Positions 29,595-37,287 of a DNA stretch of 43,182 bases are shown here, in pieces. Every line of letters starts with the position of its first letter. Within the stretch, counting starts at the first letter, position 1. The translations under genes were made by a program, and so were the position numbers. This DNA is from an uncultured Prochlorococcus sp. (lineage in GTDB: Bacteria; Cyanobacteriota; Cyanobacteriia; PCC-6307; Cyanobiaceae). The stretch covers positions 1 to 43,182 of the forward strand of contig CACNSV010000007.1 of NCBI GenBank assembly GCA_902623195.1. Reading direction: 5' to 3'. The notes under the pieces are model-generated. The model ran no database searches. It was not told where the DNA came from and worked only from the letters and a program-made list of their open reading frames with translations.

Positions 29595-30494
29595 ATGATT
29601 GCAAAAAAATTACTTATAGTTTCAGGTACACATGGTAATGAATTAAATCCAGTTTGGGCTGTAAAAAAATTTAGAAACTTAATAAATAGATCTCCACAAT
29701 CAAATTCCTTAGAATTTACTTTAGGAAATCCAAAAGCACTTGAAAAAGGATTGAGATATATTGATGTAGATTTAAATAGATCATTCAATGTCTTAAAGAC
29801 TGCCTCTAATCAAAATTTCTACGAAGTCAATAGATCTGAATATCTCATTAGTGAATATGGCATTCAAGGACCTAAATCATGTCCAATAGTAATTGATTTG
29901 CACACTACAACCTCTTGTATGGGAACGAGTATTGTTATGTATGGGAGGAGACAAAGAGATTTTTGTTTAGCCGCAATCTTGCAAGCAAAATTTGGTTTGC
30001 CTATATATTTACATGAAAAAGATGTTAACCAGACTGGATTTTTAGTTGAGGCGTGGCCATGTGGACTTGTTATCGAGATTGGGCCAGTTGCTCAGAATCA
30101 TTTTGATTCAGAGATTACGGAAAGGTTTTTAATAATATTGAGTTTTCTTGGGGATCTAATAAATAATTTAGAAAACAATAGGATTAATTTGCCAAGTGAG
30201 ATATCTCTTTTTGTTCATCAAAAAAGTATTGATTATCCTAGAAATGAAAATAATGATATTAATGCTTTAATTCATCCCTTAAGGATTAATAATGATTGGA
30301 AAATGATTGAAGAGGGTGATCCTTTATTCATAAATATTGATAATGAAACACTAACTTATTCAGGGAAAGAAAAAATATACCCATTATTCATTGGAGAGGC
30401 AGCATACAGAGAAAAGAATATCGCAATGAGTTTTACCAAAAAAGAAATCCTAAAGTGTAATCAATCATGGATTAGTAGTCTTTTATCTTTTTAA
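29595..30494 (+). CDS. aspartoacylase/succinylglutamate desuccinylase-family protein
   Basis: Zinc-dependent amidohydrolase that in characterised relatives cleaves N-acetylaspartate. Metal and catalytic motifs: GTHGNE (His, Glu ligands), DLNRSF (substrate Arg), DLHTTTS (third ligand His), and VIEIGPVA (catalytic Glu). 299 aa, ATG at 29595. The natural substrate in a marine cyanobacterium is unknown. It precedes the psbA locus. Confidence 0.9.
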   Translation: MIAKKLLIVSGTHGNELNPVWAVKKFRNLINRSPQSNSLEFTLGNPKALEKGLRYIDVDLNRSFNVLKTASNQNFYEVNRSEYLISEYGIQGPKSCPIVIDLHTTTSCMGTSIVMYGRRQRDFCLAAILQAKFGLPIYLHEKDVNQTGFLVEAWPCGLVIEIGPVAQNHFDSEITERFLIILSFLGDLINNLENNRINLPSEISLFVHQKSIDYPRNENNDINALIHPLRINNDWKMIEEGDPLFINIDNETLTYSGKEKIYPLFIGEAAYREKNIAMSFTKKEILKCNQSWISSLLSF

Positions 30495-30750: not shown

Positions 30751-30931
30751 CTCGAAATTAGAATATTAAGAAAATATTAAATCATTGAGACTCTTTTTTG
30801 TAAAAATTGAACAAATTTTGTACTTTTTATTATTTTATTTACACAATTTTCATGATTTTGGATTAAAGTTCTAGGAGCAGATTATCTCTGCTTTTATTTA
30901 CACGCCTTTTTAAGGCATACCTTACGAACTC
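30751..30931 (+). promoter_or_regulatory. psbA-1 promoter and leader
   Basis: 181 bases between the divergent small ORF and psbA-1. It holds a perfect 12-base direct repeat TTTTATTTACAC (30833-30844 and 30892-30903) and two hairpins near the start codon: AGCAG/CTGCT (30876-30892) and GCCTT/AAGGC (30904-30916). No Shine-Dalgarno site is present. TTTACAC resembles half-sites of the HLR1 light-response element (TTACAWW), but the spacing differs. Confidence 0.5.
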
Positions 30932-32014
30932 ATGACAACTATTCAGCAGCAGCGTTCATCGCTGTTAAAGGGTTGGCCACAGTTCTGTGAGTGGGTAACA
31001 TCAACTAACAACAGAATTTATGTTGGTTGGTTTGGAGTTTTAATGATTCCATGCTTACTTGCAGCAGCGGCTTGCTTCATTGTTGCTTTCATCGCAGCAC
31101 CACCAGTAGACATTGACGGAATTAGAGAGCCAGTTGCTGGTTCATTCCTATATGGAAACAACATCATCTCAGGTGCGGTTGTTCCTTCATCAAACGCTAT
31201 TGGTCTTCACTTCTACCCAATTTGGGAAGCAGCGACTGTAGATGAGTGGCTATACAATGGTGGCCCTTACCAACTTGTAATTTTCCACTTCCTAATCGGT
31301 ATCTCAGCATACATGGGAAGACAGTGGGAGCTTTCATACCGTTTAGGTATGCGTCCTTGGATCTGTGTTGCATACTCTGCACCAGTTTCAGCAGCTTTCG
31401 CAGTATTCCTTGTATACCCATTCGGTCAAGGTTCATTCTCTGACGGAATGCCTCTAGGTATCTCTGGTACATTCAACTTCATGTTTGTTTTCCAGGCTGA
31501 GCACAACATTCTTATGCACCCATTCCACATGGCTGGTGTTGCTGGAATGTTCGGTGGATCATTATTCTCTGCAATGCATGGTTCATTGGTAACATCATCT
31601 CTAATTAGAGAAACAACTGGTCTTGAGTCACAAAACTATGGCTACAAGTTCGGTCAAGAAGAAGAAACATACAACATCGTTGCAGCTCATGGCTACTTCG
31701 GTCGTTTGATCTTCCAATATGCAAGTTTCAATAACAGCAGAAGTCTTCACTTCTTCCTAGCTGTATTCCCTGTTGTTTGCGTATGGTTAACATCAATGGG
31801 TATCTGCACAATGGCATTTAACCTAAACGGTTTCAACTTCAACCAGTCAGTTGTTGACGCTAACGGTAAAATCGTTCCTACATGGGGTGATGTACTTAAC
31901 CGTGCAAACTTAGGTATGGAAGTAATGCACGAGCGTAACGCTCACAACTTCCCACTCGATTTAGCTGCTGCTGAGTCTACATCTGTAGCTCTTACAGCTC
32001 CTGCAATCGGCTAA
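30932..32014 (+). CDS. psbA: photosystem II D1 protein, copy 1
   Basis: Core reaction-centre subunit carrying the Mn cluster, TyrZ, P680 and QB. Five membrane helices; TyrZ in FLVYPFGQG, ligands in [12 protein letters not shown], and the C-terminal ligands [13 protein letters not shown], after which the 16-residue tail [15 protein letters not shown]-like extension is removed by CtpA. Gln in GRQWEL (canonical position 130) is the D1:1 form. 360 aa, start ATG at 30932. Codons favour C-ending Phe, Tyr, Asn and His, as in highly expressed genes, and GC is visibly above neighbouring genes. Identical by eye to copy 2. Confidence 0.99.
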
Positions 32015-32034
32015 GCTTAAGGTTCTTAAAATTA

Positions 32035-32061
32035 AGATCCCCTTCGGGGGGTCTTTTTTTA
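32035..32061 (+). terminator. psbA: psbA-1 terminator
   Basis: Stem AGATCCCC (32035-32042) with GGGGGTCT-type partner (32047-32054, one G-T pair) closed by a TTCG tetraloop, followed by a T-run to 32060. The same element follows copy 2. Confidence 0.93.
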
Positions 32062-32064
32062 TGT

Positions 32065-32446
32065 CTATGAATAAATTCATTAAGTATTTTTATGATGAAT
32101 GTATTTCGTAAATTAAGCACTAATTAAAATCTTTAAAATTTCAATTTAAATATTCAGATTGATAAATCTAGAGATGATAAATGATATTGGAAAATTGATA
32201 GCAAATCTATAAATCTAAGATTGATTTCAGAGTACTATCATTAAAGAAAGATTCGCTTAAGAAGAGATTTCAAATCAATTAGATGGATAAGTCTATACTC
32301 TTGTTATTTAATCATTAAAATTTATTATCAATCCCATAAGCTTTTGTAATTATCACTTTATAAAATAATCATCTATATTATTGAAAGCAAAATTAGTTTT
32401 GCTATACGTGCACGTCTCATATCGAGACATTTTTCACGAACTCATA
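32065..32446 (+). promoter_or_regulatory. spacer between psbA copies with the psbA-2 promoter and leader
   Basis: 382 bases unrelated to the psbA-1 upstream region apart from ACGAACTC just before the start. No gene is supported; the longest forward frame from 32061 encodes only 16 residues. The last 60 bases are dense in inverted repeats: AGCAAAA/TTTTGCT (32386-32403), the palindrome ACGTGCACGT (32406-32415) and GTCTC/GAGAC (32414-32428). A promoter should lie before them; TTGTAA (32345) and TATATT (32373) are possible elements with imperfect spacing. Confidence 0.5.
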
Positions 32447-33529
32447 ATGACAACTATTCAGCAGCAGCGTTCATCGCTGTTAAAGGGTTGGCCACAGTTC
32501 TGTGAGTGGGTAACATCAACTAACAACAGAATTTATGTTGGTTGGTTTGGAGTTTTAATGATTCCATGCTTACTTGCAGCAGCGGCTTGCTTCATTGTTG
32601 CTTTCATCGCAGCACCACCAGTAGACATTGACGGAATTAGAGAGCCAGTTGCTGGTTCATTCCTATATGGAAACAACATCATCTCAGGTGCGGTTGTTCC
32701 TTCATCAAACGCTATTGGTCTTCACTTCTACCCAATTTGGGAAGCAGCGACTGTAGATGAGTGGCTATACAATGGTGGCCCTTACCAACTTGTAATTTTC
32801 CACTTCCTAATCGGTATCTCAGCATACATGGGAAGACAGTGGGAGCTTTCATACCGTTTAGGTATGCGTCCTTGGATCTGTGTTGCATACTCTGCACCAG
32901 TTTCAGCAGCTTTCGCAGTATTCCTTGTATACCCATTCGGTCAAGGTTCATTCTCTGACGGAATGCCTCTAGGTATCTCTGGTACATTCAACTTCATGTT
33001 TGTTTTCCAGGCTGAGCACAACATTCTTATGCACCCATTCCACATGGCTGGTGTTGCTGGAATGTTCGGTGGATCATTATTCTCTGCAATGCATGGTTCA
33101 TTGGTAACATCATCTCTAATTAGAGAAACAACTGGTCTTGAGTCACAAAACTATGGCTACAAGTTCGGTCAAGAAGAAGAAACATACAACATCGTTGCAG
33201 CTCATGGCTACTTCGGTCGTTTGATCTTCCAATATGCAAGTTTCAATAACAGCAGAAGTCTTCACTTCTTCCTAGCTGTATTCCCTGTTGTTTGCGTATG
33301 GTTAACATCAATGGGTATCTGCACAATGGCATTTAACCTAAACGGTTTCAACTTCAACCAGTCAGTTGTTGACGCTAACGGTAAAATCGTTCCTACATGG
33401 GGTGATGTACTTAACCGTGCAAACTTAGGTATGGAAGTAATGCACGAGCGTAACGCTCACAACTTCCCACTCGATTTAGCTGCTGCTGAGTCTACATCTG
33501 TAGCTCTTACAGCTCCTGCAATCGGCTAA
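32447..33529 (+). CDS. psbA: photosystem II D1 protein, copy 2
   Basis: Same 360-aa D1 protein as copy 1, with the same TyrZ, Mn ligands, Gln at canonical position 130 and C-terminal tail. The nucleotide sequence shows no difference from copy 1 wherever I compared the lines, including silent positions and the 3' terminator. The start is the ATG at 32447; an upstream in-frame TTG (32381) would add 22 residues unlike any D1 and running through the leader hairpins, so I reject it. It has its own upstream region and the terminator of copy 1 lies before it, so it is probably a separate transcription unit. Confidence 0.99.
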
Positions 33530-33549
33530 GCTTAAGGTTCTTAAAATTA

Positions 33550-33576
33550 AGATCCCCTTCGGGGGGTCTTTTTTTA
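33550..33576 (+). terminator. psbA: psbA-2 terminator
   Basis: Duplicate of the psbA-1 terminator: AGATCCCC stem, TTCG loop and T-run. Identity between the two loci continues four bases past the T-run (to 33579) and then stops, marking the 3' edge of the duplicated tract. Confidence 0.93.
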
Positions 33577-33630
33577 TGTTTTAATTTAATAGATTCAATA
33601 TAATTAAACTAAAACAAACTTAATTATTTT

Positions 33631-34725
33631 ATGGGTAATAGTTTTGGAAAGATTTTTAAAGTTAATACTTTTGGAGAGTCTCATGGAGGAGCTGTCGGTG
33701 TTATTTTAGATGGATGTCCTCCACGTTTGAAACTTGATATTGATTTAATACAAGATGAATTGAATAGAAGAAGACCAGGTCAAAGTCAAATAACTACTCC
33801 AAGAAAAGAAGATGATAAATTAGAAATATTGAGTGGAATAAAAGATAATATTACTCTCGGTACTCCTATCGCAATGATAGTAAGAAATAAGGATCAAAGA
33901 CCAGGGGATTATAGTAATATTGAAAAAGTATTTAGACCTTCACATGCTGATGGGACCTATCATCTTAAATATGGCATTCAAGCTGATTCTGGTGGAGGTA
34001 GAGCTTCTGCAAGAGAAACAATAGGTAGAGTAGCAGGAGGAGCGATTGCTAAGCAATTCTTAAAGAAAATACATAAAATTGAGATATTATCTTGGGTGAA
34101 AAGAATTCATAATATAGATTCAGTTATCAATCCTGATAATGTCACCTTTGATGATATTGAATCCAATATTATTAGATGTCCAGATGTTGAAATAGCCGAA
34201 AAGATGATAAAAAGGATTACTGAATTACAGCAAAAAGGTGATTCTTGTGGAGGTGTCATTGAGGCTATTGCTAAAAACATGCCAAGTGGTTTGGGCATGC
34301 CAGTTTTTGATAAGTTAGAGGCTGATTTAGCTAAAGCCTTAATGTCTTTGCCTGCTACAAAAGGTTTTGAAATTGGTTCTGGCTTCTCAGGAACTTATTT
34401 GACAGGAAGTGAGCATAATGATCCATTTATTCAATCTAATGAAAATAATAAATTAAAAACATTATCAAATAATTCTGGAGGAATTCAAGGAGGTATTAGT
34501 AATGGAGAGATGTTAAAAATGCGAATTGCTTTTAAACCTACAGCAACTATAAGAAAAGAGCAGAAAACAGTTAATTCATCTGGTAAAGAAGTAATGATGA
34601 AAGCAGTTGGAAGACATGATCCATGCGTTTTACCAAGAGCTGTGCCGATGGTTGATGCAATGATAGCTCTTGTAATTGCTGATCATCTTCTGCTGAATCA
34701 TGCACAATGTGGAATTATGAATTAA
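33631..34725 (+). CDS. aroC: chorismate synthase
   Basis: Last step of the shikimate pathway, FMN-dependent conversion of EPSP to chorismate. Motifs: [29 protein letters not shown] and [17 protein letters not shown]. 364 aa, ATG at 33631, about 50 bases after the psbA-2 terminator, so with its own promoter. Convergent with eda, 19 bases apart. Confidence 0.98.
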
Positions 34726-34744: not shown

Positions 34745-35404
34745 TCAGCTATTTAATATCTTAAATATTTCGGGATCAAATTTCTCACCATCATATCCTT
34801 TACTTCCAACAACAACTCCTCGAAAACCTAAAGATTTGAATTTATCAATGCTATTTAAACCTATATTACCAGCTCCTATAAAAGAAATTTGTTTAAATTT
34901 ATTTATATCTAATAGGATATCTTTATTCGCAACTGGGAAGATTTTGATTATGCAACAATTATAAGAGATAGCCTCTTTAAAATCTTTGATACTGGTCATA
35001 CCTGGAATCAATAAATAATTATTTTTTTTTGAATATATATATAAATGTTTATCCCAAAACCTCATCATAGAGAAATTAAGATCAAGCTTTAAAGAATCAT
35101 CGATTGATTTCTTATTTATTAAAGATGCTGATCCAATTTGTAAATGAGGGAATTTAGATTTAATGTCTGACATTAAGTCAAACCAATTTATATTATCGAC
35201 CCATGGTATTTCAAGAAATAATAAACCTTTATCTACAATAAGACTTAAATCTTGAATAAATTTTTTCTTAGCTTGTTCACTTTCATAAACAATATCTTTT
35301 GGTCTTGCTAATAATATGAAAGATTGAACTTTGAGAAATTTTTGGAAGTTATTTATCTTTTCATTTAAACTTATATCCGGCTTGTTGTTACAAGTAGTTG
35401 GCAA
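34745..35404 (-). CDS. eda: KDPG/KHG aldolase-like protein (Entner-Doudoroff)
   Basis: Class I aldolase TIM barrel; in the family it splits 2-keto-3-deoxy-6-phosphogluconate to pyruvate and glyceraldehyde 3-phosphate. Schiff-base Lys in IIKIFPV (family KFFPA), Glu in LFLEIPW (family LEVTLRT), GSASL in place of GAGTV, and IPGMTSIKDFKEA. It is divergent: the Arg of LRT is not present. Starts with TTG at 35404, overlapping ftsH by 17 bases; no better start exists downstream. 219 aa, slightly longer than usual. Confidence 0.75.
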   Translation of the reverse strand: MPTTCNNKPDISLNEKINNFQKFLKVQSFILLARPKDIVYESEQAKKKFIQDLSLIVDKGLLFLEIPWVDNINWFDLMSDIKSKFPHLQIGSASLINKKSIDDSLKLDLNFSMMRFWDKHLYIYSKKNNYLLIPGMTSIKDFKEAISYNCCIIKIFPVANKDILLDINKFKQISFIGAGNIGLNSIDKFKSLGFRGVVVGSKGYDGEKFDPEIFKILNS

Positions 35405-37241
35405 CTTTAACCTCAGAACGATTTATTAAATCTTGGATATCCTCAGTATCTATGGTTTCTCTCTCAATAAGCATTTGTGCCATCTCATCTAACATACCCC
35501 TATTTTCAGTTAGTACTTTAGTTGCTCTTTTATAAGCCACATCAACAAGTTCTGAAACCTCAACATCAATTGTTGCAGCAGTATCTTCAGAAAAGTCTCT
35601 TTCAGATGCAATATCTCTGCCTAAAAACATACCACCTTGTGATCTCCCTAGTGCAACTGGGCCAATCTTTTCACTCATCCCAAACTTTGTAATCATTTGT
35701 CTAGCTACATTAGCAACCTGTTGTAAGTCATTGGATGCTCCTGTTGTAACTTCCTCCTCTCCATAAACTATCTCTTCAGCAACTCTTCCACCTAAGGCTA
35801 CTGCCATTTGATTTTGAAGATATGATCTTGAATAAAGACCAGATTCTAATCTTTCTTCACTAGGAGTGAAAAATGTTAAACCTCCAGCTTGGCCTCTAGG
35901 GATAATAGATACCTTAGCTACTGGATCATAGTCGGGCATTAGTGCACCAACTATTGCATGTCCAGCCTCATGGTATGCAACTAATTCTTTTTTTCTTTCG
36001 CTAATTACTCTATCTTTTTTTTCAGGACCTGCCATTACTCTCTCAATTGCATCCCCAACTTCATCATTACTTACTTTATCTAACTCTCTTCTAGCAGCTA
36101 GGATTGCTGCCTCGTTTAACAAATTAGCTAAATCTGCCCCAGTAAATCCAGGTGTTCTTTTAGCAACTTTATCTAAATCTACATCCTTAGAAAGGGTTTT
36201 ATCTTTAGCATGAACATTTAAGATTTGTAATCTACCTGCATAATCAGGTCTATCTACAGTTACCTGTCTATCAAATCTACCAGGTCTCATTAATGCAGAA
36301 TCAAGCACATCAGGTCTGTTTGTAGCAGCAACTATAATTATTCCAGAATTACCCTCAAACCCATCCATTTCTGTTAGAAGTTGATTTAAAGTTTGTTCTC
36401 TTTCATCATTACCACCACCTAATCCTGCCCCCCTTTGTCTGCCAACAGCATCAATTTCATCTATAAATACAATACAAGGTGCATTCTTTTTTGCTTGTTC
36501 AAAAAGATCTCTTACTCTACTTGCACCAACCCCAACAAACATTTCAACAAATTCAGATCCTGATATGGAGAAGAATGGTACTCCTGCTTCACCAGCAACA
36601 GCTTTTGCTAAGAGAGTTTTGCCTGTTCCTGGAGGTCCAACAAGTAAAACTCCTTTTGGAATTTTTGCTCCAACAGCTGTAAATCTATCAGGGCTTTTAA
36701 GAAAATCAACAACTTCAGATAGTTCAAGTTTTGAACCCTCCACGCCAGCTACATCAGCAAAAGTAACTTTGGTAGAAGGTTCCATTTGCAATCTTGCTTT
36801 ACTTTTACCAAAATTCATTGCAGGATTACCTCCTCCGCCTGAACCGCTTTGGGCTCTTCTAAATAAGAAAAATAGTGCTCCAATTAATATGATTGGAAAT
36901 AGCAAACTACTAAAAGCTTGTTGCCATGGGCTTGATAGCTTAGTAGGTTGAACTGCGATATCAACATCATTATCTGTAAGAATCTTCAATAAATCTTTAT
37001 CAGGAGCCAGGTTAACCTCAGATCTACTTCCATCATTTTCAACTACTAGAGCAGTTCCATTATCAGGTGAAATTAAAACTCTGCTTATTTCTTTTTCTTG
37101 AACGGCTTCTATAAAGTCACTGTATCTCAAAGTTTTTGTAGCACTTTCAGTATTTGGTCGATCTAGAACTGATGTTCCTATAAAAATGACTGTAATAACT
37201 ACAAGAACGTAAAGTCCAATGTTTCTTAAGCGTTTGTTCAC
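35388..37241 (-). CDS. ftsH: ATP-dependent zinc metalloprotease FtsH
   Basis: Membrane AAA+ protease; the cyanobacterial forms degrade photodamaged D1 in thylakoids. Two N-terminal membrane segments (about 6-24 and 103-121), Walker [14 protein letters not shown], pore loop MFVGVGASR, Walker [14 protein letters not shown] region [20 protein letters not shown], zinc site HEAGH, and a third-ligand Asp in the protease domain. The called GTG at 37262 gives seven extra residues; the GTG at 37241 gives [14 protein letters not shown] and 617 aa, which fits the family. Forms a run with sat upstream and eda downstream. Confidence 0.96.
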
Positions 37242-37287
37242 GATAAAATTTTTGCAATACACATATATTAATAAGAATAAATCATTA

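Follow-up and report, generated by a model that had tools for sequence, protein, structure and literature searches.

Prochlorococcus carries one to three identical copies of psbA, the gene for the D1 protein, and makes a single D1:1-like isoform (PMC3441193). In other cyanobacteria, psbA and psbD have undergone long-lasting concerted evolution by gene conversion (PMC6053082). The psbA2/3 mRNA of Synechocystis is unstable in the dark through an AU-box cut by RNase E, and ribosomes together with antisense RNA have been proposed as its protectors in the light (PMC10989914). Another psbA-associated element is the PhotoRC-I RNA motif, RF01716 (PMC2864571). These four accounts frame the analysis of a tandem psbA pair on contig CACNSV010000007.1 (assembly GCA_902623195.1) of an uncultured Prochlorococcus sp.; the stretch of 43,182 nucleotides that was analysed is called the window. 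The pair very probably stems from an old tandem duplication whose gene bodies, from ATG to terminator, have been homogenised repeatedly by gene conversion, with promoter and leader regions remaining distinct.

Identity and age of the tandem psbA pair

The sequence-only reading of this stretch had claimed two psbA genes identical base for base, silent sites and terminator included. An alignment bears this out: 1133 of 1133 bases agree at an offset of 1515, in a tract that begins exactly at the ATG and stops just past the terminator (Table 1). Both open reading frames (ORFs) encode the same 360-amino acid D1, scoring 740.9 bits against the psbA equivalog model TIGR01151 (cut-off 596.05); the mechanical ORF list opens the second at an upstream TTG, 32381, instead of the ATG at 32447. 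Glutamine 131 aligns with residue 130 of the solved D1 chain 6wj6_A, the mark of the Gln130 (D1:1) type, and the accompanying claim of one such D1 without isoform exchange stands as well. The flanking DNA had been called unrelated. That is true of the spacer and of the DNA after the repeats, but the upstream DNAs share ACGAACTC and a covarying two-hairpin layout. No ATG-initiated ORF of at least 31 amino acids lies wholly within the window's psbA stop-to-ATG gap; between the tandem copies of G095, G246 and G012 (L061, L062, L063) there is a similar 33-amino acid, membrane-like ORF.

The sample of relatives comprised 249 genomes of the genus out of a larger group, many of them partial, with two psbA candidates scored per genome; a rescoring of the matches took in 56 genomes (53 two-match genomes other than the window genome, G000, plus G228, G121 and G227). 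The tandem arrangement is common to five genomes (G000, G081, G089, G214 and G078, the window clade), with copies spaced 1513-1530 apart in the four relatives. Flanks, spacer and leader B are shared by all five, which by synteny dates the duplication before the split of these genomes. Among them the spacers are 73-97% identical, leader B 81-95% and aroC 89-98%. Since spacers and leader B are orthologous yet diverged, the duplication is shared and not young.

Copies of one genome are nevertheless closer to each other than to their orthologues, G214 being the exception. No ORF difference separates the copies within G000, G081, G089 and G078. A comparison of 13 psbA copies found alleles private to one genome yet present in both its copies: two in G081, three in G089, one in G078, two in G214 and none in G000. 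In the psbA tree, where identical rows are joined by construction, 13 of 14 pairs cluster by genome (exception, G214). Across the genus, both copies could be resolved in 16 genomes, and in 12 of these the ORFs of the pair do not differ. Two one-contig genomes, G022 and G108, belong here too, although the copies of G108 lie about 832 kb apart. The limits of identity differ by lineage. The window clade has four identical pairs; there, identity starts exactly at the ATG and the first mismatch falls at offset 1133 to 1136. In G214 mismatches begin within the gene. Identity extends 8 bases upstream of the ATG in G148-type pairs and 65-105 bases, leader included, in four G022-type pairs. The identity of the window copies is thus most likely concerted evolution by gene conversion: one psbA body would be recopied onto the other, presumably by RecA-type recombination, and each copy would keep its own switch region.

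Some psbA match, weak ones counted, occurs in 211 of the 249 genomes. Two copies within 2 kb are found in 14 of them (the window clade; G148, G199, G087, G099; G022, G021, G095, G246, G012), and distant pairs in G108 and G041. G140 and G143 each hold two start and two end fragments of psbA, while in G088 and G106 a single start fragment and a single end fragment sit on separate contigs. The second psbA of G233, on another contig (G233:C3:103429-104472), is 84% identical, a phage-like level. Three copies were seen in no genome of the sample, in which fragmented genomes could conceal them, and a search of the window's own assembly, a draft of 82 contigs that is 77% complete, found the two copies at this locus and no third. 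Single-copy relatives are also present (G121, G227, G228). In these, collapse of a pair cannot be told from a never-duplicated state, because leader A followed by psbA and aroC fits both a collapse product and a possible ancestor. Draft assemblies seem to break at psbA or to drop it. In at least 12 relatives the aroC match opens at most 18 bases from the contig start (G207, G094, G236, G025, G111, G031, G105, G019, G067, G205, G202, G010), nine of these 12 have no psbA at an E-value of 1e-20, and five of 20 near-complete genomes, partly picked for this recheck, have none. The D1 encoded on a contig titled as a Euryarchaeota metagenome-assembled genome (L117) matches the query at 92% identity, and the contig is probably mis-binned.

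Promoters and two-hairpin leaders

Both psbA starts are preceded by ACGAACTC, in copy B with three extra bases, ATA. The order further upstream is also the same for both: a -10-like hexamer, a hairpin, an AU-rich linker and a hairpin. Leaders A and B share a covarying two-hairpin 5′ untranslated region (UTR). In a MAFFT alignment of 40 leaders, 89.5% of cells in the two-hairpin structure are paired, the score is 0.372 as compared with at most 0.163 when slid, and three covariation measures beat all 500 shuffles. RNAalifold alone returned eight pairs, four of them changed on both sides. The model-fitted alignment, which leans towards the structure, has 57 distinct rows with 94.1% of cells paired, two-sided change in 11 of 12 pairs and a score of 0.510 (at most 0.198 when slid). 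Leader A folded alone lies well above shuffles (z -4.15 over 81 nucleotides, -2.54 over 149). For leader A, a possible base-pairing between GAACU ahead of the ATG and an upstream AGUUC was dropped, as by eye other leaders do not keep it.

A covariance model, R1, built from the MAFFT alignment matches ten deeper Prochlorococcus loci outside that alignment (L106-L108, L110-L116) with E-values of 1e-6 to 2e-3. At E up to 1 it matches neither L117 nor 12 other cyanobacterial loci (L121-L126, L133, L135, L138, L139, L143, L147); marginal values were returned by L118 (0.14) and by a non-leader stretch, L061 (0.3). In ten genomes searched with R1 the leader is restricted to psbA: all 15 matches below 1e-9 lie at that gene, and four others have E-values of 0.18-0.88. 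The leader model locates the leader in 185 of the 249 genomes, and twice in the 18 counted above as having two copies or two start and two end fragments; both counts are lower bounds under stricter filters. A TAnnnT hexamer precedes hairpin 1 by 6 nucleotides in 59 of 61 rows and by 7 in two, in an alignment fitted to a model that contains the hexamer. With this spacing the transcript probably begins at the hairpin, so that each mRNA would run from hairpin 1 through the AU-rich linker, hairpin 2 and ACGAACTC to the AUG.

The two promoters differ further upstream. The pattern ATCA[AG]-N4-ATAAG, spotted by eye, stands at -119 to -123 in all 14 B-type upstream regions and in none of 15 A-type regions. 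As a motif shared across B-type promoters it is only suggestive, and a profile test of shared descent was negative, in that profiles built from B-type promoters of the window clade and of other lineages failed to match one another. In G021 (L060) and G012 (L063) the distal copy-A promoter matches the B-type profile of other lineages (E 9e-5 and 3e-5), as if a leader of B type had been overwritten by conversion.

Both copies yield one D1 protein, and copy B would add dose together with a second promoter and leader. The likely task of the 5′ UTR is to set the stability and translation of D1 mRNA, possibly in response to light, and two promoter/leader classes would permit different timing. Differential regulation, proposed in the sequence-only reading, is plausible, since leaders A and B are different and five genomes have retained each. 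Past aroC and a 219-amino acid ORF from copy B lies a gene for FtsH (window 35388-37262, minus strand), the class of protease that clears damaged D1.

Table 1. Features of the psbA locus, in window coordinates
Feature	Position	Strand	Basis
psbA copy A, 360-amino acid D1	30932..32014	+	ORF; TIGR01151 740.9 bits
psbA copy B, same D1 as copy A	32447..33529	+	ORF, identity
Identical tract, copy A	30932..32064	+	1133/1133
Identical tract, copy B	32447..33579	+	1133/1133
Terminator A, GATCCCCTTCGGGGGGTC + T run	32036..32060	+	by-eye reading of sequence
Terminator B, identical to terminator A	33551..33575	+	sequence
Spacer + leader B; orthologous in G081, G089, G214, G078	32065..32446	.	sequence comparison
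Leader A, covariance-model match	30862..30940	+	model R1, 84.8 bits; in model's own alignment, matches by construction
-10-like hexamer TAAAGT, 6 nucleotides before hairpin 1 of leader A	30864..30869	+	promoter role inferred
Leader A hairpin 1 (AGCAGA/TCTGCT)	30876..30892	+	folding, model-fitted alignment
Leader A hairpin 2 (GCCTT/AAGGC)	30904..30916	+	folding, model-fitted alignment
Leader B, covariance-model match	32372..32452	+	model R1, 64.4 bits; in model's own alignment, matches by construction
-10-like hexamer TATATT, 6 nucleotides before hairpin 1 of leader B	32374..32379	+	promoter role inferred
Leader B hairpin 1 (AGCAAAA/TTTTGCT)	32386..32403	+	folding, model-fitted alignment
Leader B hairpin 2 (GTCTC/GAGAC)	32414..32428	+	folding, model-fitted alignment
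Motif TTATCAATCCCATAAG upstream of promoter B	32325..32340	+	pattern ATCA[AG]-N4-ATAAG
Upstream neighbour, aspartoacylase family	29595..30494	+	NF002601
Downstream neighbour aroC, chorismate synthase	33631..34725	+	NF003793/TIGR00033

Alternative explanations and exchange between lineages

Several points count against repeated homogenisation under conserved leaders. The G214 copies differ at 18 sites, all silent. The G148 pair has two ORF differences, one of them non-silent, as does the G246 pair in number, whose copy A (L062) carries a stop at codon 75 as assembled; a one-base indel in the G041 pair leaves one frame (L067) broken as deposited. Because these four pairs differ, homogenisation is not absolute. 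For the leaders, two of the five MAFFT covariation measures do not rise above shuffles (73/500 for pairs with two-sided change, 358/500 for further pair types), and leader B folded alone is only slightly more stable than its shuffles, with z -1.81 (10 of 200 as stable) and z -1.17 (20 of 200). Transcript start sites and leader function are deduced from sequence. The window genome is, moreover, a draft, and a short-read assembler may place one consensus twice, in which case private alleles would appear in both copies. The stop in G246 and the frame break in G041 are either errors or decaying copies.

The possibility of an assembly effect, a real pair whose perfect identity arose when near-identical copies were merged into one consensus, also draws on the relatives whose contigs start at aroC, as if breaking at psbA. 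It is unlikely, given that the one-contig genomes G022 and G108 show the same lack of ORF differences and that G214, also on one contig, keeps its 18 differences yet has two private alleles common to both copies; the count of exactly zero differences in the window is provisional on the draft assembly. The earlier reading had left a choice between recent duplication and ongoing gene conversion. Recent duplication, with too little time for divergence, would account for the 1133 identical bases, but it is very unlikely when five genomes share an arrangement whose spacers have diverged by 3-27% and aroC by 2-11%, and when genome-private alleles sit in both copies. Conversion is the half of that choice upheld by the identical pairs, the private alleles and the tree.

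Purifying selection on codons alone could hold both copies at one sequence, and psbA third positions are indeed slow (median difference 3.6% where aroC differs by 10-15%). This is still less probable, because silent differences do arise: genomes with identical pairs differ from one another at 3-9 such sites and from other lineages at about 70-90, and the two G214 copies differ as well, yet in 12 of 16 genomes the copies show none. Import of copies or alleles via cyanophage psbA is the most improbable of all. A psbA match occurs in 512 of 50,697 phage records, but none of these reaches 90% identity (best listed, 85.3%), and the single viral contig that shares a 41-mer has a psbA 85.8% identical. 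A leader 23-mer is in no viral contig of those searched, and R1 has no match at E up to 1 in six phage psbA loci. Cyanophage psbA is therefore not the source in the collections searched, and a phage origin of the window psbA was dropped. Five of the phage genes (L169-L173) have a different leader in common, by eye one with a CCAGTAGTGAGGGATTACTGG-like hairpin and possibly PhotoRC-II; this leader is absent from L174.

Beyond conversion within genomes, comparison of sequences indicates that psbA moves between lineages. G228 is 77.3% identical to the window in aroC and 70.9% in the aspartoacylase gene, but 99.4% in psbA; the figures for G227 are 77.5%, 70.2% and 98.4%. The remaining lineages at about 75-77% in aroC have psbA 91-94% identical to the window. 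Third-position differences between the window and G228 amount to 1.4% for psbA and 48% for aroC; among pairs with an aroC difference of 40-50%, the psbA median is 16.7% and the 5th percentile 4.7% (117 loci, some genomes entering more than once). The mutS2 identities to the window, 73% in G228 and 72% in G227 against 67-70% in 11 other compared genomes outside the window clade, point to a kinship only a little closer; in the aroC tree these two sit on long branches next to the window clade (support 87/86). In steps of 60 bases, identity to G228 and G227 is 81-85% at -100 and 98% from -40, and declines after the +1100 step in G228 and before it in G227. The psbA of G228 is closer to that of G078 (99.2%; aroC 77.0%) than to that of its sister G227 (98.2%; aroC 93.0%). 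Several alleles at 192-558 are common to G214 copy A and G227, a weak sign that this copy may have imported a segment (tree support 84/58). In G216, aspartoacylase is closer to one group and aroC to another, which implies a crossover near psbA.

A broader reading, evenly balanced between holding and failing when taken whole, is that psbA behaves as a shared cassette, homogenised within genomes even when its copies lie far apart and passed between lineages with more than 20% difference in the adjoining genes. The promoter/leader classes would meanwhile stay in place as separate local controls, each based on a diverged, PhotoRC-I-like two-hairpin 5′ UTR. Studies of picocyanobacterial diversity and of gene exchange between phage and host use psbA as a marker, and their trees are misled by a gene body that undergoes conversion inside genomes and passes from one lineage to another. 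With two leader classes, transcripts from identical copies can be distinguished by their 5′ ends, and the covarying leader is a concrete, psbA-only target for testing control of D1 supply in Prochlorococcus.

Relation to PhotoRC-I and other described systems

Among the papers listed by literature searches, no title or abstract opening describes this Prochlorococcus psbA leader or a transfer of host psbA between lineages, a scope too narrow to prove either unpublished; the accessible portions of PMC1242208 and PMC11262661 contain nothing on a psbA leader and on copy number, respectively. None of 22 genomes has a match that reaches the PhotoRC-I gathering score of 45 bits (best, 14.1 bits). The window leaders have no PhotoRC match at E up to 10: leader A gave chance-level hits of other families (best E 0.83) and leader B none. 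Relaxed Rfam thresholds gave no psbA-related match in the window or in the Synechococcus psbA leader L124, and 12 loci searched whole at the gathering score, L116 included, gave two tRNAs only. In a relaxed-threshold trial of just two of the ten deeper loci matched by R1, the PhotoRC-I model could be aligned over its whole length with each of them, at 21.4 bits (E 6e-4) in L115 and 14.1 bits (E 0.13) in L116, again short of 45 bits.

PhotoRC-I has the same two tandem hairpins with a linker and the same association with psbA, and the window leader likewise places two hairpins just upstream of the gene. In contrast, the Prochlorococcus leaders are AT-rich, have other stem sequences and fall under the gathering score wherever tried. 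The window leader is probably a diverged homologue of PhotoRC-I; it would work like PhotoRC-I and is a non-member by Rfam's own rule.

Synechocystis psbA2/psbA3 offer a second likeness: near-identical copies and a short AU-rich 5′ UTR with a hairpin near its 5′ end (PMC10989914). Function there comes from RNase E experiments, whereas the likeness here is one of description. By analogy only, the AU-rich linker between the hairpins could act like the Synechocystis AU-box. With the psbA/psbD genes of PMC6053082 the pair shares copies that are more alike within one genome than orthologues are; here, conserved neighbours and a spacer give synteny in Prochlorococcus. The Prochlorococcus genes of PMC3441193 are also close, with identical copies and a single Gln130 D1. 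Identical psbA copies in Prochlorococcus were thus already known. To that account the present analysis adds gene order, spacer, two leader classes and relatives, and with them a history that is shared and hops between lineages.
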